Assembly (NCBI GenBank): GCA_902803285.1
Contig: CADCPC010000019.1
Coordinates: forward strand, 1 to 36,084
Direction of reading: 5' to 3'
DNA: 36,084 nucleotides
Source of the DNA: an uncultured Erysipelotrichaceae bacterium
GTDB lineage: Bacteria; Bacillota_I; Bacilli_A; RFN20; CAG-826
Below are positions 1,087-29,130 of the stretch, one piece after another (the stretch's first letter is position 1; every line of letters begins with the position of its first letter). Under the pieces are notes generated by a model that saw nothing but the letters and a program-made list of their open reading frames with translations, ran no database searches and was not told the origin of the DNA. Both the position numbers and the translations under genes were made by a program.

Positions 1087-1088
1087 TT

Positions 1089-2612: not shown

Positions 2613-3469
2613 TGGCTGAGAAACATTACGCGAGTAAGAGAGCCGCGGAAAAAGCACAACGCGTCCTCATTTATACAATTCTTACAGTTATTTCTGTAAT
2701 CTGGATTTTCCCATTCTTCTATTTGATTCTTCAATCATTTGCGAAATTCCCAGATCCAAAGAGCATTTTCCCTACAGAATGGACAATGCAAAATTATGCG
2801 AATCTATTCACAGATACAGCGACTCCATTCTTTAGATGGTGGCTCAACACCTTTATCATTGCTTTGTTTACCTCTGTTTTACAAACAGTATTAGTCTTAA
2901 TGACTTCATATGCATTATCAAGACTTAGATTCAATGGCAGACAAGCATTGATGAAATTAATCCTTATCTTAGGTATGTTCCCTGGATTCTTAGGCATGTT
3001 AGTTGTCTATTACATTCTTGAACTTCTTAAGATTAATACTTCTATTTATTCATTAATTATCGTCTACGTTGCTAGTAGTGCGATGAGTTATTACGTGGCA
3101 AAAGGATTCTTTGATACAGTTCCTAAATCTCTTGATGAGGCCGTCATGATTGATGGTGGCACTAAGAACACAGTTTTCTGGAGAATCATCTTACCACTTT
3201 CAAAACCAATTATTATTTATACAATCCTCGTTTCCTTCACAGGACCATGGGGTGACTTTATGTTTGGTAAATACATTGTTCAAACCGCAAACTTACAACC
3301 TGAGGGTTATACAGTCGCAGTTGGTTTACAAGGATTAATCGGACAAGATTCATTCTATGGCACATTCTGTGCTGGAGCGGTGATGGTGTCAATTCCAATT
3401 ACTGCGCTATTCTTCTGGCTGCAACGTTACTACGTTGAAGGTATTGCTGGTGGCGCAGTTAAAGGATAA
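2612..3469 (+). CDS. malG: Maltodextrin ABC transporter permease, MalG type
   Basis: Second permease subunit of the maltodextrin importer; 285 residues, normal for MalG. It shows an N-terminal membrane segment (IYTILTVISVIWIFPFFYLI), the typical periplasm-facing segment with WTMQNYANLF, and the EAA loop around residues 175-190 (DEAVMIDGGTKNTVFWRI). The C-terminus (YYVEGIAGGAVKG) is the usual MalG ending. Its ATG shares one base with the stop codon of the MalF-type gene and is preceded by GAGGAGG, so the two subunits are translationally coupled. The ATPase gene follows after 12 bases. Assignment to maltodextrin rather than another oligosaccharide rests on the locus. Confidence 0.92.
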   Translation: MAEKHYASKRAAEKAQRVLIYTILTVISVIWIFPFFYLILQSFAKFPDPKSIFPTEWTMQNYANLFTDTATPFFRWWLNTFIIALFTSVLQTVLVLMTSYALSRLRFNGRQALMKLILILGMFPGFLGMLVVYYILELLKINTSIYSLIIVYVASSAMSYYVAKGFFDTVPKSLDEAVMIDGGTKNTVFWRIILPLSKPIIIYTILVSFTGPWGDFMFGKYIVQTANLQPEGYTVAVGLQGLIGQDSFYGTFCAGAVMVSIPITALFFWLQRYYVEGIAGGAVKG

Positions 3470-3481
3470 GGAGGAAGAACT

Positions 3482-6037
3482 ATGGCTTCACTAAAATTAG
3501 AACACATTTATAAGGTCTATCCTAATGGCCATAAAGCTGTTAGCGACTTTAATATGGAAATCGAAGATGGCGAATTTATCGTCTTCGTCGGTCCATCAGG
3601 TTGTGGTAAATCAACAACCTTGAGAATGATTGCGGGATTAGAAGAAATCTCTTCTGGCGAACTTTATATCGGCGATACTCTTGTTAACGATATGCAACCA
3701 AAAGATAGAGATATCGCTATGGTCTTCCAAAACTACGCTCTTTATCCTCACATGACCGTTTATGAAAATATGGCGTTTGGTCTTACATTAAGAAAAGTTC
3801 CTAGAACAGAAATCCACGAAAAAGTTATGTGGGCTGCTGATGTTCTTGGCTTAAAAGATTATCTTGATAGAAAACCAAAAGCAATGTCTGGTGGTCAAAG
3901 ACAACGTGTTTCCTTGGGACGTGCTATCTTACGTAACCCTAAGGTTATGCTTCTTGACGAACCATTATCTAACCTTGATGCGAAATTAAGAGGTCAAATG
4001 AGAAGCATGATCTCTAAACTCCATCAAAATTTAAAAACTACATTTATTTATGTTACTCACGACCAAGTCGAAGCTATGACTCTTGGTACTAGAGTAGTGG
4101 TTATGAAATTAGGTAGAGTCCAACAAATTGATGCTCCACAAAATTTATATGACCACCCAATCAATAAATTCGTCGCAGGATTTATTGGTACTCCACAAAT
4201 GAATTTCTTTAACGTTACTTTGAAAGAAGAAAAAGATAACGTTGAAATTAGATGGAGCGATTGTGAACAACCTGCATTAAAAGTATCTCATGACGCTTTA
4301 TTAAAAGCAGAAAAGAAATATCTACAAGGCGATAAACCAGTTTGCTTAGGTTTCAGATGCGAAGCAGTTTCTGCGGAAGAAGAAGAGCTTAAGAAAGGTG
4401 ATAACATTGTTAATGTTACAATTTCTCACTTTGAAGAACTCGGTAATGAAACCTTAATTTATGGTGACTTAAAAGAAGTTGAAGGCTTAGGCGGAGAATC
4501 TACAACCGGTATCATCATCAAAGCGCCTTCTAAGATGGGCCATAAACCAGGTGATGTCATCAAAGCTAGAATCGATGTTGACCATATCCATTTATTCGAC
4601 GCTGAGACAGAGATGACTATCATCCCACCAGTCCCAGATCATAGTGTACTTCCAGTTGATATTACTAATGGCAAGATGACACTATTTGGAACTATCACCA
4701 AACCTGAAAGTATTCCAGTAGACTTCTTACAAAATGGAACAATTTCTATTCCATTAGACGCAATTACATTAAATGCTGGTAATGTCGAAGGCAAAATCTT
4801 ATTAATTGAAAAACACGGCAAGAAGAACCTTGCAATGATCGAAGCTGATAAGAAGAAATTATTCGTCTTCGTTGATGGCAAAGCAAAAGTTGGCGATAAG
4901 ATTATCTTCTCGGTTGATTATTCTAAAGCAACATTCTTTGATGAAAATGAAGCAGTAGTGGCTTCTCCTTTAACCATTAGAGACCACTTACATGCAACTT
5001 TTGTCAACTTCAAGACTGCATATGAAGATACACAGAATCCTGACTTCTTAGCATTAAAAGAAGAAAAGGTTCAAGAAGTTGAAGCTAAATATGCAGAAAT
5101 CGAACAAAAATTCGAAGAAGAAAAAGCTCAAGTTTTACAAGAAGCCGCTGCTAAAGAAAGCGCAGTTAGCGGTAATGTTGAAGGTAATAAAGCAGCCTTA
5201 GCAGAAGCTAATGGTAGATTAAATGCCGAACTAAAAGAGGCAAAAGTTAACTACTCTAATGAAGTTAAAGAAATCAAAGCACGTCATGCTCAAATTATGA
5301 AAGAAGAAATGGGCAAGATTGATGCGATGTATAAGAAGATGTGGGAAGAAGAAAAAACTGACTATCAAAACTCTATGGCTAAGAATAAAGACGCAGAAAG
5401 CCGTAGAAGCCGTCGCTTATCTTACCAAGTCTTCAAAGAGAGTTTCCCTCAAATGAAAGCTAATGACGTTGAAAGAAAGTCTAACGCTTTAGAATTTGAT
5501 AAAGAAACCGAACTTAATGGTGTTAAGGCTCGTTATTCACAAAAGAAAGCCCTTATTAAAGACACAATTAAGGAAAACAAGAGAAAATATGAAGAGGAAT
5601 GCTTCCCTCTCAAATTAGCCGAAAAAGCATATGCTAAGAAAGAGAAAGAATTAGCGAAAGAAAAAGCAGAAGCTATTTTAAGAGCACAACTCATTTTCTT
5701 CTTCAAATATGACAACTATTACCAAATCATTCCTGAAGATATCACTAACAAGATTATTCAAGGTTTAGGCAATAGAGTCTTTACAAAGATTTTCCGTATT
5801 GAAGTACCTCACTATAGCTTTGCCGAAGAAGAAGGCACAATGGAATTCAAAGTTATCGCTTTAGCTAACTATGGCGATGTGAAGTTCTATAAGTGTGTCG
5901 GAGAAGCTTTCGGCGAACAAGTAGTGGTTTATATCAATAAAGCAAGAGAAATCCCTCTTGGCAGCACAATCTTCTTAAAACCTGTTCTTGAACAAACAGA
6001 GATTTATGAAGATGAACTCAATATCAGGTTGTTCTAA
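3482..6037 (+). CDS. MsmX/UgpC-type sugar ABC ATPase with long coiled-coil C-terminal extension
   Basis: ATP-hydrolysing subunit energising the importer. Residues 1-240 are a canonical carbohydrate-importer ATPase: Walker A GPSGCGKST (37-45), Q-loop Gln83, signature MSGGQRQR (135-142), Walker B VMLLDEP (155-161) and switch His193. Residues 241-375 are the expected TOBE region. Family members usually end near residue 370, but this one runs to 851. Residues about 385-490 look like another small beta-barrel, residues about 524-740 are highly charged and alpha-helical with coiled-coil character, and residues 741-851 form a further beta-rich domain. The reading frame is open throughout and codon use matches its neighbours, so this is not two genes with a missed stop. 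AGGAGGA precedes the ATG. The role of the extension is unknown; regulation, cytoskeletal or membrane tethering are guesses. Confidence 0.9.
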   Translation: MASLKLEHIYKVYPNGHKAVSDFNMEIEDGEFIVFVGPSGCGKSTTLRMIAGLEEISSGELYIGDTLVNDMQPKDRDIAMVFQNYALYPHMTVYENMAFGLTLRKVPRTEIHEKVMWAADVLGLKDYLDRKPKAMSGGQRQRVSLGRAILRNPKVMLLDEPLSNLDAKLRGQMRSMISKLHQNLKTTFIYVTHDQVEAMTLGTRVVVMKLGRVQQIDAPQNLYDHPINKFVAGFIGTPQMNFFNVTLKEEKDNVEIRWSDCEQPALKVSHDALLKAEKKYLQGDKPVCLGFRCEAVSAEEEELKKGDNIVNVTISHFEELGNETLIYGDLKEVEGLGGESTTGIIIKAPSKMGHKPGDVIKARIDVDHIHLFDAETEMTIIPPVPDHSVLPVDITNGKMTLFGTITKPESIPVDFLQNGTISIPLDAITLNAGNVEGKILLIEKHGKKNLAMIEADKKKLFVFVDGKAKVGDKIIFSVDYSKATFFDENEAVVASPLTIRDHLHATFVNFKTAYEDTQNPDFLALKEEKVQEVEAKYAEIEQKFEEEKAQVLQEAAAKESAVSGNVEGNKAALAEANGRLNAELKEAKVNYSNEVKEIKARHAQIMKEEMGKIDAMYKKMWEEEKTDYQNSMAKNKDAESRRSRRLSYQVFKESFPQMKANDVERKSNALEFDKETELNGVKARYSQKKALIKDTIKENKRKYEEECFPLKLAEKAYAKKEKELAKEKAEAILRAQLIFFFKYDNYYQIIPEDITNKIIQGLGNRVFTKIFRIEVPHYSFAEEEGTMEFKVIALANYGDVKFYKCVGEAFGEQVVVYINKAREIPLGSTIFLKPVLEQTEIYEDELNIRLF

Positions 6038-14878: not shown

Positions 14879-15844
14879 ATGAAAAGAAACATTAAATTAT
14901 TATTTACTTCCTTAGCATTATTAACATGTGGCATTTCCGCATGTAGTGGTGTTAACCCAAGCATTGTTACTCCAAGTAGCAATAGCAAATTCGTTGAAAG
15001 CGTGACTTTTGACGTTAACTATCTTTCATTAGATATTGGAGATACATACACAATTACTCCAACCATCAAGATGAAAGAAGGACATGAAGCAGCTGAAGTA
15101 AGTGGTTTATGGAAAACTTCTAAACCTAATGTTTGTAAAGTTGAAGAAGGATTGGTAACCACATTATCAGCAGGTAGTGCCTCAATTACTTATCTCGTTG
15201 GTTATAAGATGGCTAGCTGCACAATCGTTGTTAATGGTGGTAACTTAGACCCAACTCATGAAGATCCACAACCAACTCCTGCAACTATCACAATTAATGC
15301 AGCAAGTAAGACATTAGTGGTTGGTGAATCATATCAACTTATCGCTTCTACAAATGATGGCGCTGCTATCACTTGGAAATCAAGCGATGAAACTATCGCT
15401 ACTGTTAGTGAGAACGGTTTAGTTTTAGCAGTTGCTCCAGGCGAAGTTGATATTACTGCTAGCGCTAACGAAAAGAGTGCTAAATGTCACGTTACAATCA
15501 CTGATAGTTCTATTGAACCTGAACCAGGAGACGAATATCCTTGTACAGTCTATTTCTTCTTAGACTATAACAACGTTGATGAAAACGATAAAACAGGTAC
15601 CAAATTATTAGGCAGTTTTGGCTGGTATGGCAACCTTCCAATTTCTCAAAGTGGAAAAGTTCCTGCCGATCCAACAACTCCTGCTGATCCTGCATTCCCT
15701 TATTTCGTAGGCTGGAGTAGCCACACTATCATTGATAGTGCTGATGACTTATGGGATATGGAAAAAGACACTATTGGTAACGAATATTTCTTCTATTTAT
15801 ATGGAATATGGTCTGATGTTCCAAAAGGAGGCTTTATTAAATGA
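14879..15844 (+). CDS. Lipoprotein with two Big_2 Ig-like domains
   Basis: A 321-residue lipoprotein (lipobox ISAC, Cys at residue 22). Two Ig-like domains of the Big_2 type occupy about 40-118 and 133-207; the second has the signature ITWKSSDETIATVSENGLV. The C-terminal 100 residues contain YFVGWSSHT and end in FYLYGIWSD, the pattern of Listeria-Bacteroides repeats, also seen in the poly-glycine lipoprotein. The ribosome-binding site TAGGAGGT (14863-14870) overlaps the pullulanase stop codon, and its own TGA overlaps the next ATG by four bases, so it is coupled on both sides. No catalytic motif is visible. A structural or docking role on the surface is inferred. Confidence 0.8.
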   Translation: MKRNIKLLFTSLALLTCGISACSGVNPSIVTPSSNSKFVESVTFDVNYLSLDIGDTYTITPTIKMKEGHEAAEVSGLWKTSKPNVCKVEEGLVTTLSAGSASITYLVGYKMASCTIVVNGGNLDPTHEDPQPTPATITINAASKTLVVGESYQLIASTNDGAAITWKSSDETIATVSENGLVLAVAPGEVDITASANEKSAKCHVTITDSSIEPEPGDEYPCTVYFFLDYNNVDENDKTGTKLLGSFGWYGNLPISQSGKVPADPTTPADPAFPYFVGWSSHTIIDSADDLWDMEKDTIGNEYFFYLYGIWSDVPKGGFIK

Positions 15845-18800
15845 GTAAAAAATTAAAAGTTTTTGCTTTGGCGTTTGCAGGAGTATTAACTCTTGCTGGA
15901 TGTTCTAAAGTTGGCAGTGTCCCTAATCAATATAGCGATGCTGACTTAGACATTAACGAAGATTGGGTTGATTATTCAGTCCCTGCTACTTCTATTTCTT
16001 TTGAAGAAGGCGAAATAAACCTCGTTTTGAACAAAGGCGACTCTTATACTTATTCACCATCATTATCCCCTGCAAAAGCCACTTTAGGCTCCGTAGAATG
16101 GGAAAGCAGTGATACAAGTGTTGTCCTAATTGAAAAAGGAACATTAACTGCAGTTGGTGGAGGAGAAGCAGTGATTACTGTTTCTTCACCTGATGATTAT
16201 TTTGATGATATTCATCTTAATGTCACAGTTGTTGTTCCATTAGAGTCATTCTCTTTAAGTGCCTCATCATTAAATTTAGATTATAACGAAACTTCTAAAG
16301 TCGAAGTTACATATACTCCTGCTGACACCACACAAAGAGAATTAGTGTGGACTGTTAGCGATGAAAGTATTGCTACAGTTGATAAAGGATTAGTCACCGC
16401 TGGTAAAAAAGATGGTAGTACAAAATTAACTGTCCATTCACCTGTTTTAGGGAATGCTAAAGACCAAGTAGTAGCAATCGACGTTATCGATAAGACAGTT
16501 CATGTTAGTAAGGTCTTCATCACAAAGAATCAAGTTGAAGTCTCTTCTGTTGATGTTGAAGTTACTAAAGAATTACAACTAAATGCAGTTATTGAACCAG
16601 ATAATGCAACACATAAGACAGTAGTGTGGTCTAGCGACAACGCTAGTGTGGCAGGTGTAAGTGAAACTGGATTAATTAAGGCTAACGAAGTTGGAACTAC
16701 AAAAGTTAAGGTTGCAGCTGAAAATAATAAAAACGCAGAAGTAACAGTTAATGTTTTTGAAAACATTCCACATACTTTTGAATTATCAGATGATCTTAAA
16801 TTAGATACTGCTAATGTCAAAACTAAACAAATTGAAATTACTTATAAAGATGATGGAGGAGAAATTATTGTTCCTTCTCGTCCTGTTGTTAAATACACCT
16901 CTTCTAACCCAGAAGTTGCAACTGTTAACACTAGTGGCGTTGTAACTGCTGTTAGCAAAGGCGACGCAATTATTACTGTTGAAGATACAAAATATCTCCT
17001 TTCCGGTACAGTTAATGTCAGTGTTGTTAAAGGTACAACTGGTATTAAATTATCTTCTACAAGTTTGAGCATTGCTCCTGAGGATGAATTTGATTTAACT
17101 GCCTCCGTTATTCCAAGTGATAGCGATCAAAAAGATATCACCTTTGAAATCACTACTGGTGAAGTTTTAGTCAAAGAATTCACAGTTGTTGATAACACTA
17201 TCCATGTTGTGGCTGGTGAGACAGCTGGTAATGTTGTTATTACCGCAAAATGCGGTAACATTACTGCAACTTGCTCAGTCAAGATTTCTAACGAAGCTGG
17301 TGCATTTGAATCATCCAGTGCTTATATCGTTGGTATGTCTAGCGATGAAGAAGGCGGATTTGGTGATTATTCTAAACCATCTTGGGGAGATTCAAGATAT
17401 GCCTTCAAGTTCGCTGAAAAGACTGGTAATCAATACGCTATATATGAATGGCATGGATTAGTTAGATTCGATGTCGGTGATCAATGGAAACTCAGAGAAG
17501 GCGATACTTGGAAAAATATCGAAGAATACGCTACTGACGATGAAGGAACACATCAAATTGGTAGATATAAACTTGACGAAGGTGCGTTTGCAGCTGGTCA
17601 AATGCAAGCTCTCAAGAATGACAAAGATGAATATACAAATGTCAAAGTCTTAGAAGAAGGATATTACGACATTTATTACGCATATTATAAAGATGAATTA
17701 TCACCTGCAGAAGGATGGTATGACATCTATGTTGGTAAGCACGCTTTAACTCTAAATGCTTCTAGCATTAAGGCTCTTGTTAACCAAACTTCTAGCGTTA
17801 AAGCATCCTTATTTGAAGGAACATTATTAGCATCAGTTGAAGATGACACTATCGCAGAAGTTACAAACATTGCAAGTGATGGCACAATCACAGTCAAAGG
17901 TCTTGCAGAAGGCACAACAAAATTAATTGTTAGCGATGACGCAAATACTCTTGAATGCGAAATTAAAGTCGTTGATGCTGCATCATTATCAGCATATTAC
18001 CTAATTGGTGACTTCAATAGTTGGACTACTGAAGACGTAAACTATAACCTAACCCAAGTTAGTGAAAACGAATATGAAATTACTGATGTCACATTAACAA
18101 CCGAAATGGGCTTTAAAGTTCATAATCCTGCTGGAGAAGGCACTTGGTATTCAAATAAAAACGCATATGAAGGACATTCTTTAGATGATAACGGCAATGT
18201 CCACGTTACAACTAACGGTGTTTATACAGTTCACTTCTATGTTGAATCAGAATATGAAAACCATATTTACGCTGTTAAGACTGGCGGAGATGAACCAACT
18301 CCTACAACCGAAGTTTATGAAATGCACTACGGCATTGGCGAAAGCTGGGCAACCGTTAACTTAGAAGCTAATGGCGAAGGCGAATATAAACTCTTAGACT
18401 TCGAATTAGCAGAAAATACAGAATTCGTTTTCAACCTCAATGGCACATGGAAACATTATGACCAACTCAAACTTTCTGAATTCGCATTAGAAACATTCGA
18501 ACAAGCTGGTGACAACATCAAAGTTAAAACCGGTAAAGGTGGACACTTCAATATCTACGTTTCAGTAAATCCAGATGAATCTGGAGATTATGAAGGCAAA
18601 TCCATTTGGATTGAAAGTGCAGTAGAACCTCCTGTAAGCGAAGAATACTACATGCATTACACATTAGATGGAACTACATGGTTAGATGAGGATTTAGAGC
18701 TAAATGTCGCTGGTGAATATAAATTATTAGACTTTGAATTAACTGAAGGCGCTCAATTCCTCTTTAATCTCAATGGTCTTTGGAAGAAATATATTGACCT

Positions 18801-19980
18801 CAAACTTTCAGATGATGCTCTAGCAATATTTGAGGCTAGTGGTGAAGATATCAAAGTCAAAGAAGGCAAAGGTGGACACTTCAACTTCTACGTTAAAGTT
18901 TCTCCTGAAACCGAAGGCGATTATATCGGCAAATCAATCTGGGCAGAACCAGTAACACCAATCGCTGATGAATATTACATTACTTATGGTCTTTCCGGCG
19001 AAGCTTGGACAAATGCTGAATTAGAACTTAACGGCGAAGAAGGCTATAAGATTCTAGGCTTACCTTTAGCAGAAAATGTTGAGTTCACTATCAACATGAA
19101 TGGTGATTGGAGACATTATGATCAACTCAAACTCTCTCCATTTGCTTTAGCGACATTTGAACAAAGTGGTGATAACATCAAAGTTAGAGCTGGCAAAGGC
19201 GGAACATTTAATATCTTCGTAGGCTTTGAACCAGATGAATCAGGAGATTATGAAGGTAAATCCATTTGGATTGAAGATGCTGCTCCTGCTCCAACTCCAG
19301 ATACCGAAACAGTGTACTTCACAAATAACTTGGGTTGGGAACATGTCTATGCCTATGCATTCAATGCTTCTGAAGAGGCTATCGTGTCTTGGCCAGGAGA
19401 ATCAATGACTTATGTTGCTACTAACTCATATGGACAAGATGTCTATTCATACGAATTAGATATCGTTGAATACAGCACGATTATCTTTAATAATGGCGAA
19501 GGCGTCCAAACTGTTGATGTCTCTTTAGCTGATTTCACCGAATATAGAGGCTATTATTGTGATGCATTAGAAGACACAAAATACACAGTTGGAACATATA
19601 AATATGAATTAGGCCTCGCTGAAAGCGAAGTCGCAATTCAAACTAATGAAAGTGCAACAGTACAAGCTTATACATACATTGGCGAATTAACTGTTAATAG
19701 TAGTGATGAAACAGTGGCAACAGCGTCTGCAAACGCTTCTGGATTAATTACTATCAATGCAACCGCTAAAGAAGGCACGGCAACTATTACTGTTACTGAT
19801 GAAGCAGGAACAAGTAGAGAAATCGCTGTTACTACTACTGAGGAAATTGTTGTAACAGAATACGAGTATGTCTTCTACTGGACAGGCGAAAGCAAATATC
19901 AAGACATGCGTAATGTGCTTATTTGGGGCTGGAAAGATGGCGAAGAAGGCGCTTGGTATGATGGTGCATATCATTTATGA
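15841..19980 (+). CDS. Giant multi-module starch-binding lipoprotein (reading frame broken near its 3' end)
   Basis: Surface scaffold of 1379 residues; lipobox LAGC, Cys at residue 21. In order: about five Big_2 Ig-like domains (45-485); an unrecognised module (about 491-635, starting AYIVGMSSDE); another Big_2 (640-712); a module starting YYLIGDFNSW (719-815), also present at the end of the protein at 22429; three near-identical repeats of about 110 residues (826-1145); a CBM26-type starch-binding module (1155-1255; key features GWEHVYAYAF, SWPG, IIFNNG); a further Ig-like domain (about 1260-1335); and the beginning of a last domain at 1338. That domain stops abruptly at TGA 19978-19980, while its continuation is open in the +1 frame to 20149. 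No catalytic site is seen. Starts by a four-base overlap with the gene before. Multivalent starch binding is inferred from the modules. Confidence 0.85.
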   Translation: MSKKLKVFALAFAGVLTLAGCSKVGSVPNQYSDADLDINEDWVDYSVPATSISFEEGEINLVLNKGDSYTYSPSLSPAKATLGSVEWESSDTSVVLIEKGTLTAVGGGEAVITVSSPDDYFDDIHLNVTVVVPLESFSLSASSLNLDYNETSKVEVTYTPADTTQRELVWTVSDESIATVDKGLVTAGKKDGSTKLTVHSPVLGNAKDQVVAIDVIDKTVHVSKVFITKNQVEVSSVDVEVTKELQLNAVIEPDNATHKTVVWSSDNASVAGVSETGLIKANEVGTTKVKVAAENNKNAEVTVNVFENIPHTFELSDDLKLDTANVKTKQIEITYKDDGGEIIVPSRPVVKYTSSNPEVATVNTSGVVTAVSKGDAIITVEDTKYLLSGTVNVSVVKGTTGIKLSSTSLSIAPEDEFDLTASVIPSDSDQKDITFEITTGEVLVKEFTVVDNTIHVVAGETAGNVVITAKCGNITATCSVKISNEAGAFESSSAYIVGMSSDEEGGFGDYSKPSWGDSRYAFKFAEKTGNQYAIYEWHGLVRFDVGDQWKLREGDTWKNIEEYATDDEGTHQIGRYKLDEGAFAAGQMQALKNDKDEYTNVKVLEEGYYDIYYAYYKDELSPAEGWYDIYVGKHALTLNASSIKALVNQTSSVKASLFEGTLLASVEDDTIAEVTNIASDGTITVKGLAEGTTKLIVSDDANTLECEIKVVDAASLSAYYLIGDFNSWTTEDVNYNLTQVSENEYEITDVTLTTEMGFKVHNPAGEGTWYSNKNAYEGHSLDDNGNVHVTTNGVYTVHFYVESEYENHIYAVKTGGDEPTPTTEVYEMHYGIGESWATVNLEANGEGEYKLLDFELAENTEFVFNLNGTWKHYDQLKLSEFALETFEQAGDNIKVKTGKGGHFNIYVSVNPDESGDYEGKSIWIESAVEPPVSEEYYMHYTLDGTTWLDEDLELNVAGEYKLLDFELTEGAQFLFNLNGLWKKYIDLKLSDDALAIFEASGEDIKVKEGKGGHFNFYVKVSPETEGDYIGKSIWAEPVTPIADEYYITYGLSGEAWTNAELELNGEEGYKILGLPLAENVEFTINMNGDWRHYDQLKLSPFALATFEQSGDNIKVRAGKGGTFNIFVGFEPDESGDYEGKSIWIEDAAPAPTPDTETVYFTNNLGWEHVYAYAFNASEEAIVSWPGESMTYVATNSYGQDVYSYELDIVEYSTIIFNNGEGVQTVDVSLADFTEYRGYYCDALEDTKYTVGTYKYELGLAESEVAIQTNESATVQAYTYIGELTVNSSDETVATASANASGLITINATAKEGTATITVTDEAGTSREIAVTTTEEIVVTEYEYVFYWTGESKYQDMRNVLIWGWKDGEEGAWYDGAYHL
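18316..19278 (+). repeat. Three tandem protein repeats of about 110 residues
   Basis: Repeat units start near 18316, 18646 and 18973 (residues 826, 936 and 1045), so the period is 110 then 109 residues. Each follows the pattern MHY or similar, W, EYKLLDFEL, F-x-x-N-x-NG-x-W, KLS, GDNIKV, GKGG-x-FN and SIW. Units one and three are the most alike, sharing HYDQLKLS and DESGDYEGKSIWIE. The order of strands and aromatic residues suggests a carbohydrate-binding beta-sandwich. Proteins of the SipW group have looser repeats of the same length at 25060-26030. Confidence 0.85.
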
Positions 19981-20149
19981 TGGATATGGTAACAAAGTTA
20001 CATTGCCAGCTAAAATTGATCATGTCATATTAGTTGTTTTTGCAAATGGAACAACAGCATCTAATGCTAACTGGGCAAATAAAATATCTCAATCTCAGAC
20101 ATGTACATTTACACCTGGTACAACTTCTGATATAGCTATTACTTGGTAA
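19976..20149 (+). pseudogene. Frame-displaced 3' end of the giant lipoprotein gene
   Basis: Read in the +1 frame, this stretch gives YDGYGNKVTLPAKIDHV, then VVFANGTTASNANW, and ends DIAITW at a TAA. Together with the last residues in the main frame (VLIWGWKDGEEGAWYDG) it completes the same W-G-W / NW / QT domain found at the ends of the proteins at 10930 and 24898. An 8-base direct repeat (19957-19964 and 19976-19983) spans the break. Either a real mutation, an assembly error or, less likely, a programmed +1 shift explains it. The stop at 20147-20149 lies six bases before the next gene, as expected for the true end of this gene. Confidence 0.75.
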
Positions 20150-22281: not shown

Positions 22282-22317
22282 GAGCTGAATTGCAAATAAA
22301 GAATCGGCTCTTTTTTT
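22282..22317 (+). terminator. Rho-independent terminator
   Basis: GAGCTGA (22282-22288) pairs with TCGGCTC (22304-22310) over seven base pairs including one G-T, followed by seven T residues. It lies just after the Big_3 lipoprotein gene and ends the surface-degradation transcription unit. Confidence 0.85.
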
Positions 22318-22332
22318 GTTATATGTATTTTG

Positions 22333-22352
22333 GATAAATAAATTTATTTATC
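22333..22352. promoter_or_regulatory. Perfect 20-base palindrome upstream of the SipW-cognate genes (candidate operator)
   Basis: GATAAATAAA is followed directly by its exact reverse complement TTTATTTATC. With no loop it is better suited to a dimeric DNA-binding protein than to an RNA hairpin. It overlaps the candidate -35 box of the promoter before the gene at 22429. Confidence 0.5.
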
Positions 22353-22375
22353 TCTTAAATTTGTTGCGCTACAAT
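22347..22375 (+). promoter_or_regulatory. Weak candidate promoter of the SipW-cognate cluster
   Basis: TACAAT at 22370-22375 is a good -10 box. The -35 position at 17-base spacing holds TTTATC (22347-22352), a poor match lying inside the palindrome. A promoter is expected here because a strong terminator stands just upstream, but the exact -35 is uncertain and an activator may be needed. Confidence 0.35.
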
Positions 22376-22390
22376 GTAAGTATCAAAGTA

Positions 22391-22409
22391 GGCATCCGTA
22401 GGTGATGCC
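22391..22409 (+). promoter_or_regulatory. Leader hairpin next to the ribosome-binding site
   Basis: GGCATC (22391-22396) pairs with GATGCC (22404-22409) over six bases with a seven-base loop. The ribosome-binding site AGAAAGGA starts two bases later, so the stem would stack against it in the leader. It may protect the 5' end or tune translation. I do not recognise a riboswitch class. Confidence 0.4.
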
Positions 22410-22428
22410 GAGAAAGGAAAATAAACAG

Positions 22429-23589
22429 ATGAAAAAGAAAATTTTTCTTTTGGCCTCTGTTGCAATGGGTGTCGCTTTAGTAGGCACTACTTTTGCAAAG
22501 TGGGCAGTTACCGATAATGCTGACCCTTTCAGCATTAAGGTAAGTACTGGTGAAGTATCTTCTGATGCTACAACAGAATACGTCACACTCTCCTGGGGTT
22601 CATCTCAAAAAATGGGCAATGTTTCTAATTTAGCGATGAACAGCTTAAGAAGAGTTGGTGTTTTAGATTTACGCGCTGATACTGAATCTGAAAACACACC
22701 TGACGGAACATTAAGCTATGTTTTATCTGGCGATAAAGCATTAAAAGATGTTCTTGAAGTTCATGTTTATCAAGGAGATGTTGAAGAAGCAAATTTAGGC
22801 TCTGCAACAGAAGTCACAGGTTTTGTTTCTGGATCAAAAGTCCTCCAAGTTAATGCTAAACAAGCAAATTTATACACTGTCGCAGTTAAGTTGGCTTCCA
22901 GCATTAATGATGCAGCTAAGTATGCAGCATTGAAAGATAAAGTGGTTGACATCGAATTCGACTGGGCAAAAGGAACTGATGTCCTAGAAGCACATACAAT
23001 TTATGTTACTGGTTTCAGCGGAACTCCAAAGATGTATGCTTGGAATGACTCCGAAATCAATGCCAATTGGCCAGGTGTCGATATGACTCCAGTTGCTGGC
23101 GCTGATGGATATTACACAGCAGAATTAGCAATTAAATACACTAAAGTCATCTTCTCATATAATGGCGATGAACAAAAATCAGAAGACATTACTATTGCAT
23201 CCTCATTCTCATTTACTGGAACAATTAAGAATTTATACAATCACGATGGTGCAACATTCTCTGAAATGCCAGAAGTGAAAGAACCAGAATATTTCTTAAT
23301 TGGCAGTTTCAATAGCTGGACACAATCAGATGCAAATTATAAGATGACAAAAGTTAGTGCTAACGAATACACTAAAGCAGTTACAGTTGAAGCTAATGCA
23401 ACACTTAAAGTCTTTGAAGGAACTTCAAAAATGTACTATTCAAGTGTTTCACCATGGGATGGCTGCGGCTTCACAATCGATGGTGATGGCAACATTCAAG
23501 TTACTGCTGCCGGCACATACACAGTTCACTTCTATCCTAACGGTGACAATGGTAATTTAGTCACATTAGGCTTACCAGTTAATCCTTAA
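22429..23589 (+). CDS. SipW-cognate (TasA/camelysin-like) surface protein with CBM26-like and YFLIGSFNSW modules
   Basis: Exported protein of 386 residues. The signal peptide has the SipW-cognate pattern: KKK, a short hydrophobic core, VGTTFA and then KWAVTDNADPF, with cleavage expected after Ala23. Residues about 25-185 form a beta-rich domain with the layout of TasA/camelysin proteins, which build extracellular fibres in Bacillus. Residues about 189-275 (PKMYAWND, NWPG, VIFSYNG) are CBM26-like. Residues about 286-386 begin YFLIGSFNSW, the same module as in the giant lipoprotein. I start at 22429, not at an in-frame ATG 27 bases earlier, because AGAAAGGA sits 10 bases upstream of 22429 and the signal peptide then begins at MKKK. 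A hairpin and the cognate peptidase gene follow. Starch-binding fibre subunit is inference. Confidence 0.82.
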   Translation: MKKKIFLLASVAMGVALVGTTFAKWAVTDNADPFSIKVSTGEVSSDATTEYVTLSWGSSQKMGNVSNLAMNSLRRVGVLDLRADTESENTPDGTLSYVLSGDKALKDVLEVHVYQGDVEEANLGSATEVTGFVSGSKVLQVNAKQANLYTVAVKLASSINDAAKYAALKDKVVDIEFDWAKGTDVLEAHTIYVTGFSGTPKMYAWNDSEINANWPGVDMTPVAGADGYYTAELAIKYTKVIFSYNGDEQKSEDITIASSFSFTGTIKNLYNHDGATFSEMPEVKEPEYFLIGSFNSWTQSDANYKMTKVSANEYTKAVTVEANATLKVFEGTSKMYYSSVSPWDGCGFTIDGDGNIQVTAAGTYTVHFYPNGDNGNLVTLGLPVNP

Positions 23590-23599
23590 ATTACAAATA

Positions 23600-23632
23600 G
23601 GGAAGGCTCTAATTTCAGGGCCTTCCCTCTTC
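23600..23632 (+). terminator. Strong hairpin between the first SipW-cognate gene and the peptidase gene
   Basis: An 11-base-pair stem (23600-23610 with 23617-23627, one G-T pair) closes a six-base loop and is followed by TCTTC, only a short T-poor tail. It can act as a partial terminator or as a 3' stabiliser. It lies 12 bases before the peptidase start, which has no clear ribosome-binding site, so the peptidase should be made in much smaller amounts than its substrate. Confidence 0.65.
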
Positions 23633-23639
23633 AGCATTT

Positions 23640-24923
23640 ATGAAAAAGAAGATAACAAAGGGTAAAATATTTGACATAATTAGCTGGATAGTTGTTCTTT
23701 TGTTATTCGGCTCTTCTTTGTTCTTGCTTATTTCTAGGCAAAGCAACGGAAGTGTTCTGATTTTTGGAAATAGATATGACGTTGTATTAAGCAATTCAAT
23801 GTCATATAAAAACGAAGCACATTTAGATTTTTTGAACGGTCATGATGATCAAATTCAAAAAATGGACGTTGTGCAATCAAGAGCCGTTGATAAGAACAGC
23901 GAGATTAATGTTTATGATATTGTTCTCTTTAGAGACAAAACAATAGGCACTAACATGCATAGGGTTGTTGATAAACAAGTCAAAAACATCGATTATTTTT
24001 ATTTAAAAGATGCTGCTATTACAAATGAAGAGATATCTTTAAACCAATATGGCAGCAAAATCTATACAAGTACAAATTTACATTTCACAACATTAGAATT
24101 AACTTTTGTTTCGTCAAACGCATCATTTAGCAACGGATACAATGTTTCTCTTAATACTCATTTGTATTTGGATTTAACGGTTGAAACAAAACAAGTTGCA
24201 GATAAATATGAACATAAATTAACTGCAAAAAAGAGTACTGATGCTCCTGGGAAACTAATTATTGGCCACAATAAAGAATTTGATTATGGTAGTGAAGTCA
24301 TAACAAGCATCAAATTAGATTCAACGTATGGCGATATTAATATAAACGGATCTAACTTCGAACTAATCGACGGTATTTATACTAGTATAAATAATATTAC
24401 TTACGAATACATGATTAGAGGCGATGCTGCCAAAACAGAAGATGGTTGGTTTACTATAGATCAAATTTATTCTAAAGTTACCAAAATTATCCCTAAGGCA
24501 GGATACTTTGTTAGTTATATTACTTCTGTTCCGGGCATCATAATGCTTGTTGGAATAGGTTTGTTAATCGTAGTTGCTGATGTTGGATTAGACTTGATTG
24601 CCAAGAAAGAGAAAGAAAAGAAAAAGTTGAGAGTATATTTTTCAACAAAATGGGAATCTTGCTCTTGCGAATTAAAGGGAGATAATTCTTCTGAAAATCA
24701 AGAAGCTACTCTTATTGGTCAAGATAGATATGGCGAAAACATTTACAAAGTTATCGTCGATAACAAGATATTCAAAGAGATTAAATTTAGTAATGGTGAT
24801 AACTCCACTGATTTCATATCTTTAGAAGGTATCAATAGTGGAACTGGTTTTTATGAAAGTGAAGAAGGCATAAAAACATTTGTTCAAGAGGAAAACAATG
24901 AAGCTAAGAATAAGAAAAAGTAA
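23640..24923 (+). CDS. sipW: SipW-like signal peptidase I with extracellular insertion and cytosolic CBM26-like tail
   Basis: Membrane serine protease that removes signal peptides, probably those of the three neighbouring SipW-cognate proteins. Transmembrane segment 1 is residues 11-31. The catalytic serine is Ser53 in LSNSMS, and DIVLFRD (93-99) and NMHRVVD with His107 follow. The third SipW motif appears as RGDAAKTEDG (260-269), with Asp262 or Asp268 as the expected acid. Between His107 and this motif lie about 150 residues, where SipW normally has few. Transmembrane segment 2 is about 297-320, followed by AKKEKEKKK, so the rest is predicted cytosolic. Residues 330-415 (RVYFSTKW, IYKVIV, IKFSNGDNSTDFISL) resemble a CBM26 module. 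SipW is usually about 190 residues; this has 427. The 3' end overlaps the next start by 26 bases. Confidence 0.82.
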   Translation: MKKKITKGKIFDIISWIVVLLLFGSSLFLLISRQSNGSVLIFGNRYDVVLSNSMSYKNEAHLDFLNGHDDQIQKMDVVQSRAVDKNSEINVYDIVLFRDKTIGTNMHRVVDKQVKNIDYFYLKDAAITNEEISLNQYGSKIYTSTNLHFTTLELTFVSSNASFSNGYNVSLNTHLYLDLTVETKQVADKYEHKLTAKKSTDAPGKLIIGHNKEFDYGSEVITSIKLDSTYGDININGSNFELIDGIYTSINNITYEYMIRGDAAKTEDGWFTIDQIYSKVTKIIPKAGYFVSYITSVPGIIMLVGIGLLIVVADVGLDLIAKKEKEKKKLRVYFSTKWESCSCELKGDNSSENQEATLIGQDRYGENIYKVIVDNKIFKEIKFSNGDNSTDFISLEGINSGTGFYESEEGIKTFVQEENNEAKNKKK

Positions 24924-26676
24924 AATAATTATTTCTTCTATATTAGCCGTTTCCGGTGCTTCTTTAATGGTGGGCACAGTAAGCGCAAAATGGGCGGTGA
25001 CTGACAACGCCAATCCTTTTTCTGTGAAAATTAGTGTTGATGTTCCAACAGTTGAACGAGGTTATTATTTAACATTTGAAAGCGATAATTATTTAACCAG
25101 TGGTTCTAAAGCTATTAAAATGACAACTGCTGGAGATAATAAAGCTCAAACAACATCTGTCTCTATCAGCAACGCTGATAAAATAAGAATATATTATTAT
25201 GATGGCAGCACAGTAGAAGATGCCTCATCGTTAACCACATACAGTTTACCTGATACATATGGTTATGCTTCTCTTGGTGGAGATAGCTCCACATTGACAT
25301 TTAACACAAGCAGAAGTGGCAATTCATTTAGTTTCTATCTCAACAACGAGAATAAACTATATCTGGTTGATGAAACATATAATTCATATGATGGATATTA
25401 CATCAGTTATTCCACAAATAGTGGATCTACTTGGTGCTCATTTGCTGATGCAATTCATATGAGCGATACAAGTGGAGATAATGTAGCAGAATATACTGGT
25501 TCATTTAATTCTAACTATATATATAAGATTGAGCATTTCTCTGGCACGAAAGGTATTATTTCTTCTGCCAAGTTGCAAGGTGGAACATATACTCATTTCA
25601 CCAATAGTATGGCTAACGATACCACATTGTCATTTAAAGCTACTGCAAATTACAAATTAATGCTTTCAGCAGATAATGATAAGATCTATATCCAAAAGCC
25701 ATCAGCGTCCTCTCTAAGTGGTTATTACATTTTCTTAAATGGTAATACTGATTACACAACTGCTATCAAGATGGATGCAAGCGTAGGAAACCATGGAGAA
25801 TATACTTTTGACGTTGCTGCTAATACAAGTATTAGAATTGCTAAAGTAGACGCAGTTACTGACGTTACCCATACAGATGCATACGCTACACTAGGAAGAG
25901 CGGAAAGCTTCGTTAATCAAAGTGTTGGTTCATCAACAATTACATTTAATAAAACTGATAAATATACCATCTATCTAAACACAAGCGATGAAGTATTTAT
26001 TGATATTGCTTCGATGAATACTGTGTATTTCAACGATGGCGGATCCGATCTATGGGGCATTCAACGTACTTCTAAGATGATTTACTTTACTATGCCAAAC
26101 AATGGTGCTTGGTCTAGAGTTTATGCTTATGCATGGGATGAAGGTGGTAGTAACGGCAATAATAGTTCATGGCCAGGAGTTGCTGCTACTTATGTCAAAG
26201 ACAACGATTATGGTCAAAAGATTTACTGTTATGAAGTAGATGAAAAATATAACTATGTTATATTTAATAATAACGGTAGCAAGCAAACTTCCAATATTTC
26301 TCTTTCTGGAGTTGATGATTGTTCTCAATATTACGTCAATAACAACGATAGTGGCGATGTTACAAAGATTAAATACTCTGATCCAAGAGCAGAATATGGA
26401 TTATTGTATGCTTGGGTTTGGGAAACGACTGAATCAAGTGGTCACTGGGAAGAACTTACTGCTTCATCTACAAAGTTAGGTTATTATGAAATGACCATCC
26501 ATAGCTATGAAACAAATGTGAAGTTTGCTAGATGTGCATATATACCAACTGCATATTCCGACTTATCAAATAGCTATGTAGTTTGGAATAATGTTCAAAC
26601 AACAGTTCCGGGTGACGGCTATGCGTATACAATCACAAGCTGGAGTGGTGGAAGCTGGTCAGGAGCAGCAATATAA
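24898..26676 (+). CDS. SipW-cognate surface protein with three 110-residue repeats, CBM26 and a C-terminal W-rich module
   Basis: Exported protein of 592 residues. The signal peptide ends VGTVSA followed by KWAVTDNANPFSVKIS, almost identical to the protein at 22429, so it is a likely substrate of the peptidase encoded just before. Three repeats starting GYY at residues 55, 166 and 275 (period 111 and 109) have alternating aromatic strands and end in patterns such as YTIYLN. A CBM26 module spans about 395-490 (WSRVYAYAWDE, SWPG, YVIFNNNG, QTSNISL). The last domain (about 497-592; YAWVW, GHWEEL, WNNVQT) is the shared W-rich module. I chose ATG 24898 over an in-frame TTG 18 bases earlier because AAGAGG lies just upstream. 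No anchor is present, as expected for a fibre or layer subunit. Confidence 0.82.
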   Translation: MKLRIRKSKIIISSILAVSGASLMVGTVSAKWAVTDNANPFSVKISVDVPTVERGYYLTFESDNYLTSGSKAIKMTTAGDNKAQTTSVSISNADKIRIYYYDGSTVEDASSLTTYSLPDTYGYASLGGDSSTLTFNTSRSGNSFSFYLNNENKLYLVDETYNSYDGYYISYSTNSGSTWCSFADAIHMSDTSGDNVAEYTGSFNSNYIYKIEHFSGTKGIISSAKLQGGTYTHFTNSMANDTTLSFKATANYKLMLSADNDKIYIQKPSASSLSGYYIFLNGNTDYTTAIKMDASVGNHGEYTFDVAANTSIRIAKVDAVTDVTHTDAYATLGRAESFVNQSVGSSTITFNKTDKYTIYLNTSDEVFIDIASMNTVYFNDGGSDLWGIQRTSKMIYFTMPNNGAWSRVYAYAWDEGGSNGNNSSWPGVAATYVKDNDYGQKIYCYEVDEKYNYVIFNNNGSKQTSNISLSGVDDCSQYYVNNNDSGDVTKIKYSDPRAEYGLLYAWVWETTESSGHWEELTASSTKLGYYEMTIHSYETNVKFARCAYIPTAYSDLSNSYVVWNNVQTTVPGDGYAYTITSWSGGSWSGAAI

Positions 26677-26678
26677 CT

Positions 26679-27512
26679 ATGAAGCATAAAGGCAAGGTTA
26701 TATTGATTGTTTCTGCTGTTCTTTTATCAACTTCCTTGGTTGGTACTACTTTTGCAGTCTGGGCTGCTAGTAACAAGCCATTTGAGAATAGCAATGTTTC
26801 CCCTTCGGTTATTACTGAAAACGATGATAAAAATGTTGTTTTATCTTGGGGCGATAAAGGATTAATTGATATTGAAGAAATTAATGCAGGCGAAGAAAAA
26901 GGACCTTATAAAGTAGGACTTATTGCTTCTACAAGTGATGATAGTGGAATAAACGGGAAATTCACCGTAACTATTACTAGCCCATCTTCTAGTGAATATA
27001 GCATCTTAAACTATCTAACTGTTGGTGTTTATGATGACAATCTTAAGAGTAATGAGTTACTAAAAATATCGCCTACTAGTTCTTCGAAAGAAAGTAGTAT
27101 CGTTGTTCAATTACAAAGCAGAGTCGCCACAAATGTATATTTCTTTATCTCTCTTTCAAATGATGCAGAGTCGCATATGGAAGAAATAGTTGATACCGCA
27201 ACAATAACAATAGACTTAACTAAAACGGACGATCTCCCAGTAGTAGAGACCATAAAACATTATTTTGATAATTCAATAACTAATTGGTCCAAAGTATACG
27301 CTTATGCTTGGAACAGTAATGGAGTAACAACTAAGTCTTGGCCAGGAATTGAACTTCAGTTATATGAAGGAACTATCTATGCGATATCTATATCCAAAGA
27401 TTTTGATTTCATAATGTTTAGTGATGGTGGTATCAACAAAACAGATACGCTCGAACTAAATAAGACAACTTCCTACATATATTCAAACGGAAATTGGTCC
27501 CCATACTTATAA
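26679..27512 (+). CDS. Small SipW-cognate (TasA/camelysin-like) protein with C-terminal CBM26
   Basis: Exported protein of 277 residues. The signal peptide shows LVGTTFA then VWAASNKPFENSN, a SipW-cognate site. Residues about 27-185 are a beta-sandwich of the TasA/camelysin type (VLSWGDKGLIDIEEIN; similar to TLSWGSSQKMGNVSN in the protein at 22429). Residues about 188-277 are a CBM26 module (NWSKVYAYAWNSNG, SWPG, FIMFSDGG, KTDTLEL) that ends the protein. AGGAG lies 13 bases before the start, inside the preceding gene, and the two genes are two bases apart, so translation is likely coupled. A terminator follows. The simple layout (one fibre-type domain plus one starch-binding module) makes it the clearest candidate for a starch-binding fibre subunit. 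Confidence 0.82.
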   Translation: MKHKGKVILIVSAVLLSTSLVGTTFAVWAASNKPFENSNVSPSVITENDDKNVVLSWGDKGLIDIEEINAGEEKGPYKVGLIASTSDDSGINGKFTVTITSPSSSEYSILNYLTVGVYDDNLKSNELLKISPTSSSKESSIVVQLQSRVATNVYFFISLSNDAESHMEEIVDTATITIDLTKTDDLPVVETIKHYFDNSITNWSKVYAYAWNSNGVTTKSWPGIELQLYEGTIYAISISKDFDFIMFSDGGINKTDTLELNKTTSYIYSNGNWSPYL

Positions 27513-27532
27513 AAAACAGATTGAAATTATTG

Positions 27533-27553
27533 AGAGGTTAAAAGCCTCTTTTT
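27533..27553 (+). terminator. Rho-independent terminator of the SipW cluster
   Basis: AGAGG (27533-27537) pairs with CCTCT (27545-27549) across a seven-base loop and runs into a T tract ending at 27553. The stem is short but the position, 20 bases after a stop codon and before a strong promoter, supports it. Confidence 0.65.
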
Positions 27554-27583: not shown

Positions 27584-27612
27584 TTGATAACAATTGTAAT
27601 TAAGCATATAAT
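27584..27612 (+). promoter_or_regulatory. Strong sigma-A promoter with a palindrome over the -35 box
   Basis: TTGATA (27584-27589), a 17-base spacer and a perfect TATAAT (27607-27612). The block 27584-27603 is an imperfect palindrome around the perfect core ACAATTGT (27590-27597 extended by matching AT and TT/AA steps, 16 of 20 positions symmetric). A regulator could bind there and cover the -35 box. The ribosome-binding site TAGGAGGG of the next gene follows at 27655-27662. Confidence 0.75.
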
Positions 27613-27669: not shown

Positions 27670-29130
27670 ATGAAAAAATCCTTTAAATTAATTGTTGCTA
27701 CAATTTTTGCTTCTTTATCTGTTGGTGCTGCTGTTGGCGCAATAGTTTCTAAATCTGATGTAAAAGATTACGAAGCTGCTCTTGCTGGCGATACTTGGTA
27801 TTATCTTGGCAAAAATGGTCATAAAAACGCTACAGATTGGAGTTGGGCAACAGGTGACTACACAATCGAACAAGGTGTAAAGGCTATTTGGACGATTAGA
27901 CGTTCGGAAGCCTTTAAAGTTGCTAGTAAAGCAGATTGGAGCGGTATTAACCTTGGCTATTCCAATTTGAGTGGCACAGATTATACCACTTATTTTGAAT
28001 CTGATGGCGATGGTAATATTGTTTGTAAAGCCTCTGGTGTTTTTACTGTAAATGTTGCAAGCACATCAAGTATTGTAATTGAGCCAGTTTCTGCATCTGA
28101 TGTTTCTTCAAGCGGAAAAATTTATCGCTTTACCAATAATTTGAATTGGAGCAAAGTTTATGTTCATGCTTGGGGAAGCAGCGATGAAACAAATAACACT
28201 GAATGGGATAAAAATATCGAGTTAACCCATTTTAGCTATAATGAAAACGGTGAAAAAGTTTATTATTTCTTCACTCATGTCACAGATTACTCATCATTAA
28301 TCTTCAGAAATGGTTCAGATGGAAACGCAAATCAAACTGTAGATATTTCATTGTCATATGGTGATGTTGCATGGTTTTGTGAAGGCACTTATGACAGTAA
28401 GCAAAATGTTACAGCTTGGACACCTGGCAATCATGATTACTATTTCTATGATTATGAAAACGCCTATAACTGGGATGTAAGAGTTTACGCTTGGTCTAGC
28501 AATGGCGGATTCCCATCAAACGCATCTTATGCTGAAGCACCAGCAATCTCTGCAGCAGCAAATTCAAGTGGTAGAGTTTATTACTTCTCATTGCCTTGTG
28601 AATATGACTATGTCATATTTAAAAACGCAGATGATTCTGTTAAATCCGCTGATATAGCAATTCACACATATGCTGGTAAAGCTTTTGTTAGATGGAGCTC
28701 ATCTTCTACCGATAATAAGACATACGAATCTACGATGGCTCATGACTGGGTTAATAACACCATGCATTTATGGGATTATGATCCTAATCACGACGATAGT
28801 GAAGGCACAAATGCATGCTATGGAACAACTGGTAAAGATGGTTATTATGCTTATGCGAAATCATGTTATAGCGCATTTAATTCGACCATTAAATCTGATA
28901 TAGCGGCAGAAACCAACTATGGTTTAGCTTATGCAAGATTGCAAGCTTGGGCTACTGCATGTGGAGACACCGTTTCTTCTAGTGATAATGTCATTAGCTT
29001 CTCCAGAATTAATACATTTGTGGGCTTGGGCAGTGAATCAAACGACGTGATGATAATTGCTATTATAGTTTCCGTCATAACATTAACAGCGGTTGCAGGT
29101 TTCTTCTTCTTTAAAAAGAAAAGAGCGTAA
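27670..29130 (+). CDS. Membrane-anchored surface protein with two CBM26-like modules
   Basis: Surface protein of 486 residues. A signal peptide (KKSFK, hydrophobic core, VGAIVS; mature protein probably from about residue 33-38) is followed by a first beta-module (about 40-135, DTWYYLGKNG), a CBM26-like module (about 148-245; NWSKVYVHAWG, LIFRNG, NQTVDISL) and a second one (about 252-345; NWDVRVYAWSSNGG, YVIFKNADDS). A Cys- and Tyr-containing region (about 370-440; ACYGTTGKDGYYAYAKS) of unknown type precedes a C-terminal membrane helix (459-478) ending FFFFKKKRA. There is no LPXTG motif, so anchoring is by the helix or by an unrecognised sorting signal. It has its own strong promoter and terminator. 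It could tether starch, or the SipW-processed proteins, to the membrane. Confidence 0.82.
   Translation: MKKSFKLIVATIFASLSVGAAVGAIVSKSDVKDYEAALAGDTWYYLGKNGHKNATDWSWATGDYTIEQGVKAIWTIRRSEAFKVASKADWSGINLGYSNLSGTDYTTYFESDGDGNIVCKASGVFTVNVASTSSIVIEPVSASDVSSSGKIYRFTNNLNWSKVYVHAWGSSDETNNTEWDKNIELTHFSYNENGEKVYYFFTHVTDYSSLIFRNGSDGNANQTVDISLSYGDVAWFCEGTYDSKQNVTAWTPGNHDYYFYDYENAYNWDVRVYAWSSNGGFPSNASYAEAPAISAAANSSGRVYYFSLPCEYDYVIFKNADDSVKSADIAIHTYAGKAFVRWSSSSTDNKTYESTMAHDWVNNTMHLWDYDPNHDDSEGTNACYGTTGKDGYYAYAKSCYSAFNSTIKSDIAAETNYGLAYARLQAWATACGDTVSSSDNVISFSRINTFVGLGSESNDVMIIAIIVSVITLTAVAGFFFFKKKRA

Follow-up and report, generated by a model that had tools for sequence, protein, structure and literature searches.

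The 36,084-nucleotide stretch of DNA analysed here (the window), which comes from an uncultured Erysipelotrichaceae bacterium, contains a four-gene operon (22429-27512, plus strand) coding for three exported proteins with starch-binding modules and for an endoplasmic reticulum (ER)-type signal peptidase resembling SipW. We found that this SipW operon is real, conserved, and starch-linked. After their predicted cleavage sites, two of the exported products start with a nearly identical segment of 18 residues (the N-strand), and this segment co-varies between the two partners from genome to genome. Judging from the sequences and by analogy with TapA and TasA of Bacillus subtilis, we consider it moderately probable that the products form a SipW-exported cell-surface starch adhesin assembled by N-strand donation. 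The operon and its borders comprise the following features:

22282..22318, plus strand: terminator-like hairpin (gagctga...tcggctc, then T7) in the gap that separates the operon from the lipoprotein gene upstream of it; read by eye, not listed by the scanner
22429..23589, plus strand: subunit 1, 386 amino acids (aa), with SipW-like signal peptide, N-strand, subunit domain, carbohydrate-binding module (CBM) of family CBM26, and SusE-like module
22498..22551, plus strand: first 18 residues of subunit 1 after the predicted cleavage site (KWAVTDNADPFSIKVSTG), candidate donor strand
22576..22983, plus strand: subunit domain of subunit 1, beta-rich, about 140 residues, alignment family A3/A6
23011..23178, plus strand: CBM26 of subunit 1, 34.1 bits
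23290..23586, plus strand: SusE/SusF-like starch-binding module, C-terminal in subunit 1
23640..24923, plus strand: ER-type (SipW-like, S26B) signal peptidase, 427 aa, two transmembrane segments
23796..23801, plus strand: catalytic Ser53-Met54, invariant among aligned relatives
23958..23963, plus strand: catalytic His107-Arg108, invariant among aligned relatives
23997..24404, plus strand: insert of about 135 aa separating the His and GD boxes, found among the peptidases examined only here and in genome G014
24420..24425, plus strand: Gly261-Asp262 box, Asp invariant and Gly nearly so in the wider set
24627..24860, plus strand: CBM26-derived C-terminal tail of the peptidase, past the second transmembrane segment; 19 bits, independent E value 8.5e-7 among 14 sequences
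24898..26676, plus strand: donor-only protein, 592 aa, with signal peptide, N-strand, three repeats, and CBM26, lacking the subunit domain
24988..25041, plus strand: predicted mature residues 1-18 of the donor-only protein (KWAVTDNANPFSVKISVD), near-identical to those of subunit 1
25054..26016, plus strand: three GYY repeats of about 105 aa in the donor-only protein
26080..26298, plus strand: CBM26 of the donor-only protein, 49.5 bits
26679..27512, plus strand: subunit 2, 277 aa, with signal peptide, divergent N-strand, subunit domain, and CBM26
27261..27452, plus strand: CBM26 of subunit 2, 41.5 bits
27532..27550, plus strand: terminator-like hairpin closing the operon, from the scanner
27584..27612, plus strand: promoter-like site TTGATA-17-TATAAT of the next gene (27670), 11 of 12 matches

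Exported proteins and signal peptidase of the operon

The three exported products carry short basic/hydrophobic SipW-like signal peptides with GTTFA or GTVSA at the end. With the cleavage sites inferred by reading the sequences, their predicted mature N termini are KWAVTDNADPF (22429), KWAVTDNANPF (24898), and VWAASNKPF (26679). Both the SipW-like signal peptides and the near-identity of two of the N termini had been claimed in an earlier note on this DNA and are borne out. The CBM26 modules that the note had assigned to all three proteins were likewise recovered by profile search, each exceeding the gathering cut-off of PF16738 (28.1 bits). However, the N-terminal domain is not common to the three, as the product of 24898 consists of the N-strand, the repeats, and CBM26 only. 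The relatives of the CBM26 modules in the PDB are those of Ruminococcus bromii Amy10/Amy16 and Amy13K, and the Trp of the WPG motif is present in all three exported proteins. Binding by LaCBM26 needs a Trp, W32 (PMC6260227), with no match in position to the WPG Trp implied. The operon CBM26 modules are putative starch binders.

The C-terminal module of subunit 1 was matched by Foldseek to SusE (4FCH, with maltoheptaose; probability 1.00, E 9.5e-4). Because the structure model was of low confidence, the SusE-like call leans also on a match to Pfam SusF_SusE that stayed below the cut-off (16.5 bits). For the repeats of the donor-only protein, a SusE-like identity was considered and dropped, as no likeness was detectable.

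ER-type peptidases are expected to possess conserved S-M, H-R, and GD...D boxes. The peptidase encoded at 23640-24923 has an SxM serine box, an HR box in which His replaces Lys, and a GD...D box, and Asp268 is also invariant among aligned relatives. Thus, a SipW-like gene does lie among those of the exported proteins, as the note had it. The enzyme matches the NCBIfam SipW equivalog NF046067 weakly, scoring 24 bits where the cut-off is 190. The CBM26-derived tail of the enzyme is without the WPG motif, is predicted to be cytoplasmic, and is missing from the G014 orthologue. The gaps between the four genes measure about 50, -26, and 2 bases. The products of the neighbouring genes are the predicted substrates of the operon peptidase.

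Conservation and linkage to starch genes

Of the order's 279 genomes, 23 were matched by the subunit-domain profile A6, one with a weak score. Starch or glycogen enzyme genes lie close by in 14 of the 22 genomes with clear subunit matches (G000, G014, G029, G065, G093, G094, G126, G135, G139, G179, G182, G594, G605, and G606), which belong to nine genera and two families. One further locus, L146 (G161), gave the appearance of starch linkage but was excluded from this count, as its SipW is of the longer, non-starch class and lipoprotein CBM26 genes lie nearby. As a control, we used the MoxR-linked SipW class of the same family, for which starch or glycogen genes were found within 8 kb in only 4 of 37 loci (Fisher p 6e-5). 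This p value serves as a guide only, given the non-independence of the genomes and the scoring of module loci by eye at about 10 kb, as against 8 kb for the control; the genus count is safer. This second class, whose SipW is mostly about 300-370 aa, adjoins an AAA ATPase of the MoxR type together with several SipW-like substrates, and it accounts for most SipW-like genes of the family. It occurs in many genera (L082, L088, L091, L093, and many of L094-L144), mostly away from starch genes.

G014, from the same genus as the window, has the orthologous operon at the same locus. G126, which belongs to another genus, preserves the gene order amylase, pullulanase, two lipoproteins, subunit-CBM26, SipW, donor-only protein, branching enzyme (GBE), GlgP, and glycoside hydrolase family 77 (GH77). 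The donor-only partner there carries CBM20 in place of CBM26; thus, unrelated starch modules are joined to the N-strand.

The loci fall into two classes. In class A (g1, g36, G126 of g7, and G594), one protein holds both the subunit domain and the CBM. In class B (g12, g13, g43, g45, g47, g51, and G106 and G108 of g7), a protein of about 190 residues consists of the subunit domain alone and is accompanied by SipW. A protein of about 300 residues in these loci combines a different domain with a C-terminal module related to SusE-like ones (hhalign 85%), and in several cases a third protein has a similar SusE-related module or CBM26. The subunit domains of the two classes form one family (hhalign 96%). 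Starch modules of three unrelated kinds, CBM26, CBM20, and SusE-like, recur. An ordinary neighbourhood, in which unrelated secreted proteins next to a signal peptidase carry amylase-type modules by chance, is barely credible: CBM26 is common in the family, mostly on amylases, but operon order and linkage are conserved in nine genera.

Two relatives have peculiarities of their own. The CBM-subunit gene of G029 (L086:8905-9795) contains an in-frame TGA (NPDQ*LSVEYK) and is a pseudogene, an error, or a case of TGA read as an amino acid. In the starch locus of G594 (L208:7477-11859), from another family of the order, SipW plus the CBM26 subunit occur as two tandem copies, flanked by an amylase on one side and further genes of the locus on the other.

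Co-variation of the N-strand and the proposed assembly

To compare partners, we scored mature residues 1-18 of the CBM subunit against those of its partner in 11 genomes, using BLOSUM62 and a permutation test. The mean score was 45.0 within genomes and 13.8 between them (p ~1e-5, also when G014 was left out). Subunit-to-subunit similarity of the N-strand between genomes was only 16.5, and thus partners from the same genome are more alike than orthologues. In contrast, the 18 residues at the C-terminal end of each signal peptide scored 20.4 within and 18.2 between genomes (p 0.13). The small subunit of class B, a third predicted SipW substrate, likewise gave no N-strand match (S-T p 0.49, S-C p 0.50).

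A recent duplication of gene starts was rejected as the source of the match, because it would have copied the signal peptides too. Alternatively, the shared N terminus might be a recognition sequence of the SipW-like peptidase, co-varying with the peptidase of each genome; indeed, every carrier is a predicted SipW substrate adjoining that peptidase gene. We regard this as improbable, because neither the signal peptides nor the third substrate of the same class B operon follow the pattern. Given these two failures to match, the pattern is most simply explained by a groove that both partners bind, and the co-variation provides strong evidence that two operon products would share a partner via their N-terminal strand. 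The N terminus of TapA resembles the donor strand of TasA and complements TasA (PMC9674648, PMC10151520). The match and co-divergence found here mirror this pattern, and the donor-only protein, in the window and in other genomes, combines a partner-like N-strand with an unrelated body of its own, as expected of a TapA-like protein. The co-variation thus makes donor-strand assembly more likely than it appeared from the first reading of the sequence alone.

Another rival reading is a true TasA-type biofilm fibre with incidental starch modules, and the presence of a SipW-like peptidase and its predicted substrates in one operon, as in tapA-sipW-tasA, speaks for it. The earlier note had indeed expected N-terminal domains of the TasA/camelysin type. 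However, PF12389 (Peptidase_M73) had no match in the window genome or in 15 members of the subunit family, a PDB profile search with the subunit domain returned no match, and profile-profile comparison with M73 by hhalign gave probabilities of 0.1-2.9%, while the two halves of a split M73 family, compared as a positive control, gave 96-98%. Homology to TasA/camelysin was therefore rejected: it was detected neither with Pfam or NCBIfam models nor by PDB profile search or hhalign, whereas the controls came up positive. As CBM26, CBM20, and SusE-like modules moreover recur and are linked to starch genes, we find a TasA-type fibre very unlikely. Thus, the SipW-type peptidase, the starch modules, and the conserved linkage of the initial interpretation stand, while its TasA/camelysin homology is unsupported.

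For assembly by strand donation, we propose the following sequence of events. The operon peptidase would release the three starch-binding proteins outside the membrane, and cleavage would expose a short strand as the new N terminus of the main proteins. Each molecule could then lend its strand to complete the fold of the next, as in TasA/TapA. In this way, subunit 1 could form a chain, which the donor-only protein may start or cap. In relatives, a lipoprotein with the subunit domain but without the strand, as found in two genomes (L027:3724 in G014 and L078:14200 in G065), could serve as the membrane anchor. The modules would hold starch beside the lipid-anchored amylase and the neighbouring pullulanase. 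That the products form a fibre is our hypothesis, and the full scheme of a starch-binding pilus, with a SipW-exported donor-strand chain of TasA-unrelated subunits bearing starch modules, an acceptor-only lipoprotein as anchor, and a donor-only adhesin as start or cap, is possible and proposed only tentatively.

The exported products might instead be separate, non-assembling surface proteins that bind starch, each tethered by the shared N-terminal segment to a common receptor or the cell wall. No fibre homology was detected, starch capture could be explained by the CBM content alone, and co-variation points to a common partner but not to its identity. On the other hand, the 18-residue match is strong between just two operon products and mirrors TapA/TasA, and strand-less acceptor-type domains do occur in lipoproteins. 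On balance, we consider such tethering somewhat unlikely.

Several observations weigh against donor-strand assembly into a starch-binding structure. The subunit domain is without detectable relation to TasA or M73. AlphaFold2 models from two window sequences were weak (pLDDT, the predicted local distance difference test, 45 and 53; predicted template modelling score, pTM, 0.52 for the latter). Foldseek searches with the weak model of the subunit domain returned generic beta-sandwiches only (E ~0.01 or worse), and TasA was not among the hits listed for these low-confidence models. We recognised no acceptor-only lipoprotein in the window genome, and subunit 2, although orthologous to the domain of the acceptor lipoproteins, carries a SipW-like signal peptide followed by a strand that is divergent. 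A general signal peptidase I is also encoded in the genome, and the SipW-like enzyme may not be the only one to process the exported proteins. Eight of the 22 module loci (G106, G108, G225, G228, G233, G235, G237, and G592) lie away from starch genes, five of them from one genus and some on short contigs. Last, the module is accessory: the subunit family had no match in 17 of the 19 genomes of the genus searched, and a related rumen metagenome-assembled genome (MAG), L058, has the starch locus without it.

The operon shares with tapA-sipW-tasA of B. subtilis an ER-type SipW-like peptidase encoded with its predicted substrates. Two of these substrates carry a shared strand directly behind the cleavage site, and one of the two lacks its partner's domain, as TapA does. 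It differs in a subunit domain not detectably related to TasA/M73, in the CBM on every exported product, in its starch locus, and in the acceptor-only lipoproteins of relatives. Donor-strand assembly with end-specific subunits, as proposed here, is known from chaperone-usher and type V pili; however, no chaperone, usher, or activating protease was recognised here.

Well-known systems for capturing starch at the cell surface are the Sus-type outer-membrane complexes and the cohesin/dockerin amylosomes. Compared to the R. bromii amylosome (Sas, Amy), the operon has CBM26 modules homologous to those of Amy10/Amy16 and predicted starch binding at the surface of a Gram-positive gut bacterium. Dockerin and cohesin did not appear in Pfam scans of the locus proteins; an N-strand and a SipW-like peptidase stand in their place. 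Subunit 1 ends in a module resembling those of SusE/SusF in Bacteroides, whereas SusC and SusD are absent from the genes examined and the binders are predicted SipW substrates, not outer-membrane lipoproteins. A literature search covering few subscription journals brought up no publication in which SipW/TasA systems are connected with starch-binding modules, and within that literature such an organisation of starch capture was not found described. If the proposal is true, a SipW-type peptidase with strand-donating subunits would be another way of organising starch capture, recurring across genera of uncultured gut Bacilli, and Gram-positive donor-strand assembly would extend from the biofilm matrix to nutrient capture. 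The N-strand and the subunit domain offer a directly testable pair of peptide and acceptor.

The surrounding starch locus

The window is contig 19 of a 1.04-Mb genome in 73 contigs (91% complete) and is occupied by a starch/maltodextrin locus, which holds all five CBM26 matches of that genome. Around the operon lie the following genes:

1-6037: transport genes (solute-binding protein, two permeases, ATPase), followed before the amylase by two lipoproteins
7621: alpha-amylase with lipobox
10930: lipoprotein, between amylase and pullulanase
11755: pullulanase, without lipobox
14879, 15841, and 20156: lipoproteins with Big_2/Big_3 domains (that at 15841 with CBM26 too), between pullulanase and operon
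27670 and beyond, 3' of the operon: C-terminally anchored CBM protein (27670), GH77, branching enzyme, and phosphorylase

The operon had been described as placed directly after lipid-anchored amylase and pullulanase genes. The lipobox holds for the amylase but not for the pullulanase, and three lipoprotein genes intervene before the operon. The promoter-like site at 27584 is weak, since 46 such sites were found against 42 expected. Within 15841-20149, the 1379-aa lipoprotein reading frame breaks off abruptly at 19980, and a second frame (19868-20149) carries on to a module-like ending, ...VVFANGTTASNANWANKISQSQTCTFTPGTTSDIAITW; this resumption points to a frameshift, either genomic or introduced by the assembly.

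A search for related loci with the operon peptidase as query found nothing, while the GH77 gene retrieved four related MAG loci, one from a record titled horse faeces. Close GH77 relatives are MAGs named Bacilli or Erysipelotrichaceae, and we read the RUG/RUI isolate prefixes of others as rumen. Proteins anchored by a C-terminal transmembrane segment and ending in FF(x)KK-type tails are encoded directly 5' of GH77 in the window (27670-29130) and at L059:87-1208, L060:3950-5110, and L027:4906 and 6842. Several of them carry CBM-like modules, and the position before GH77 holds in the relatives examined.

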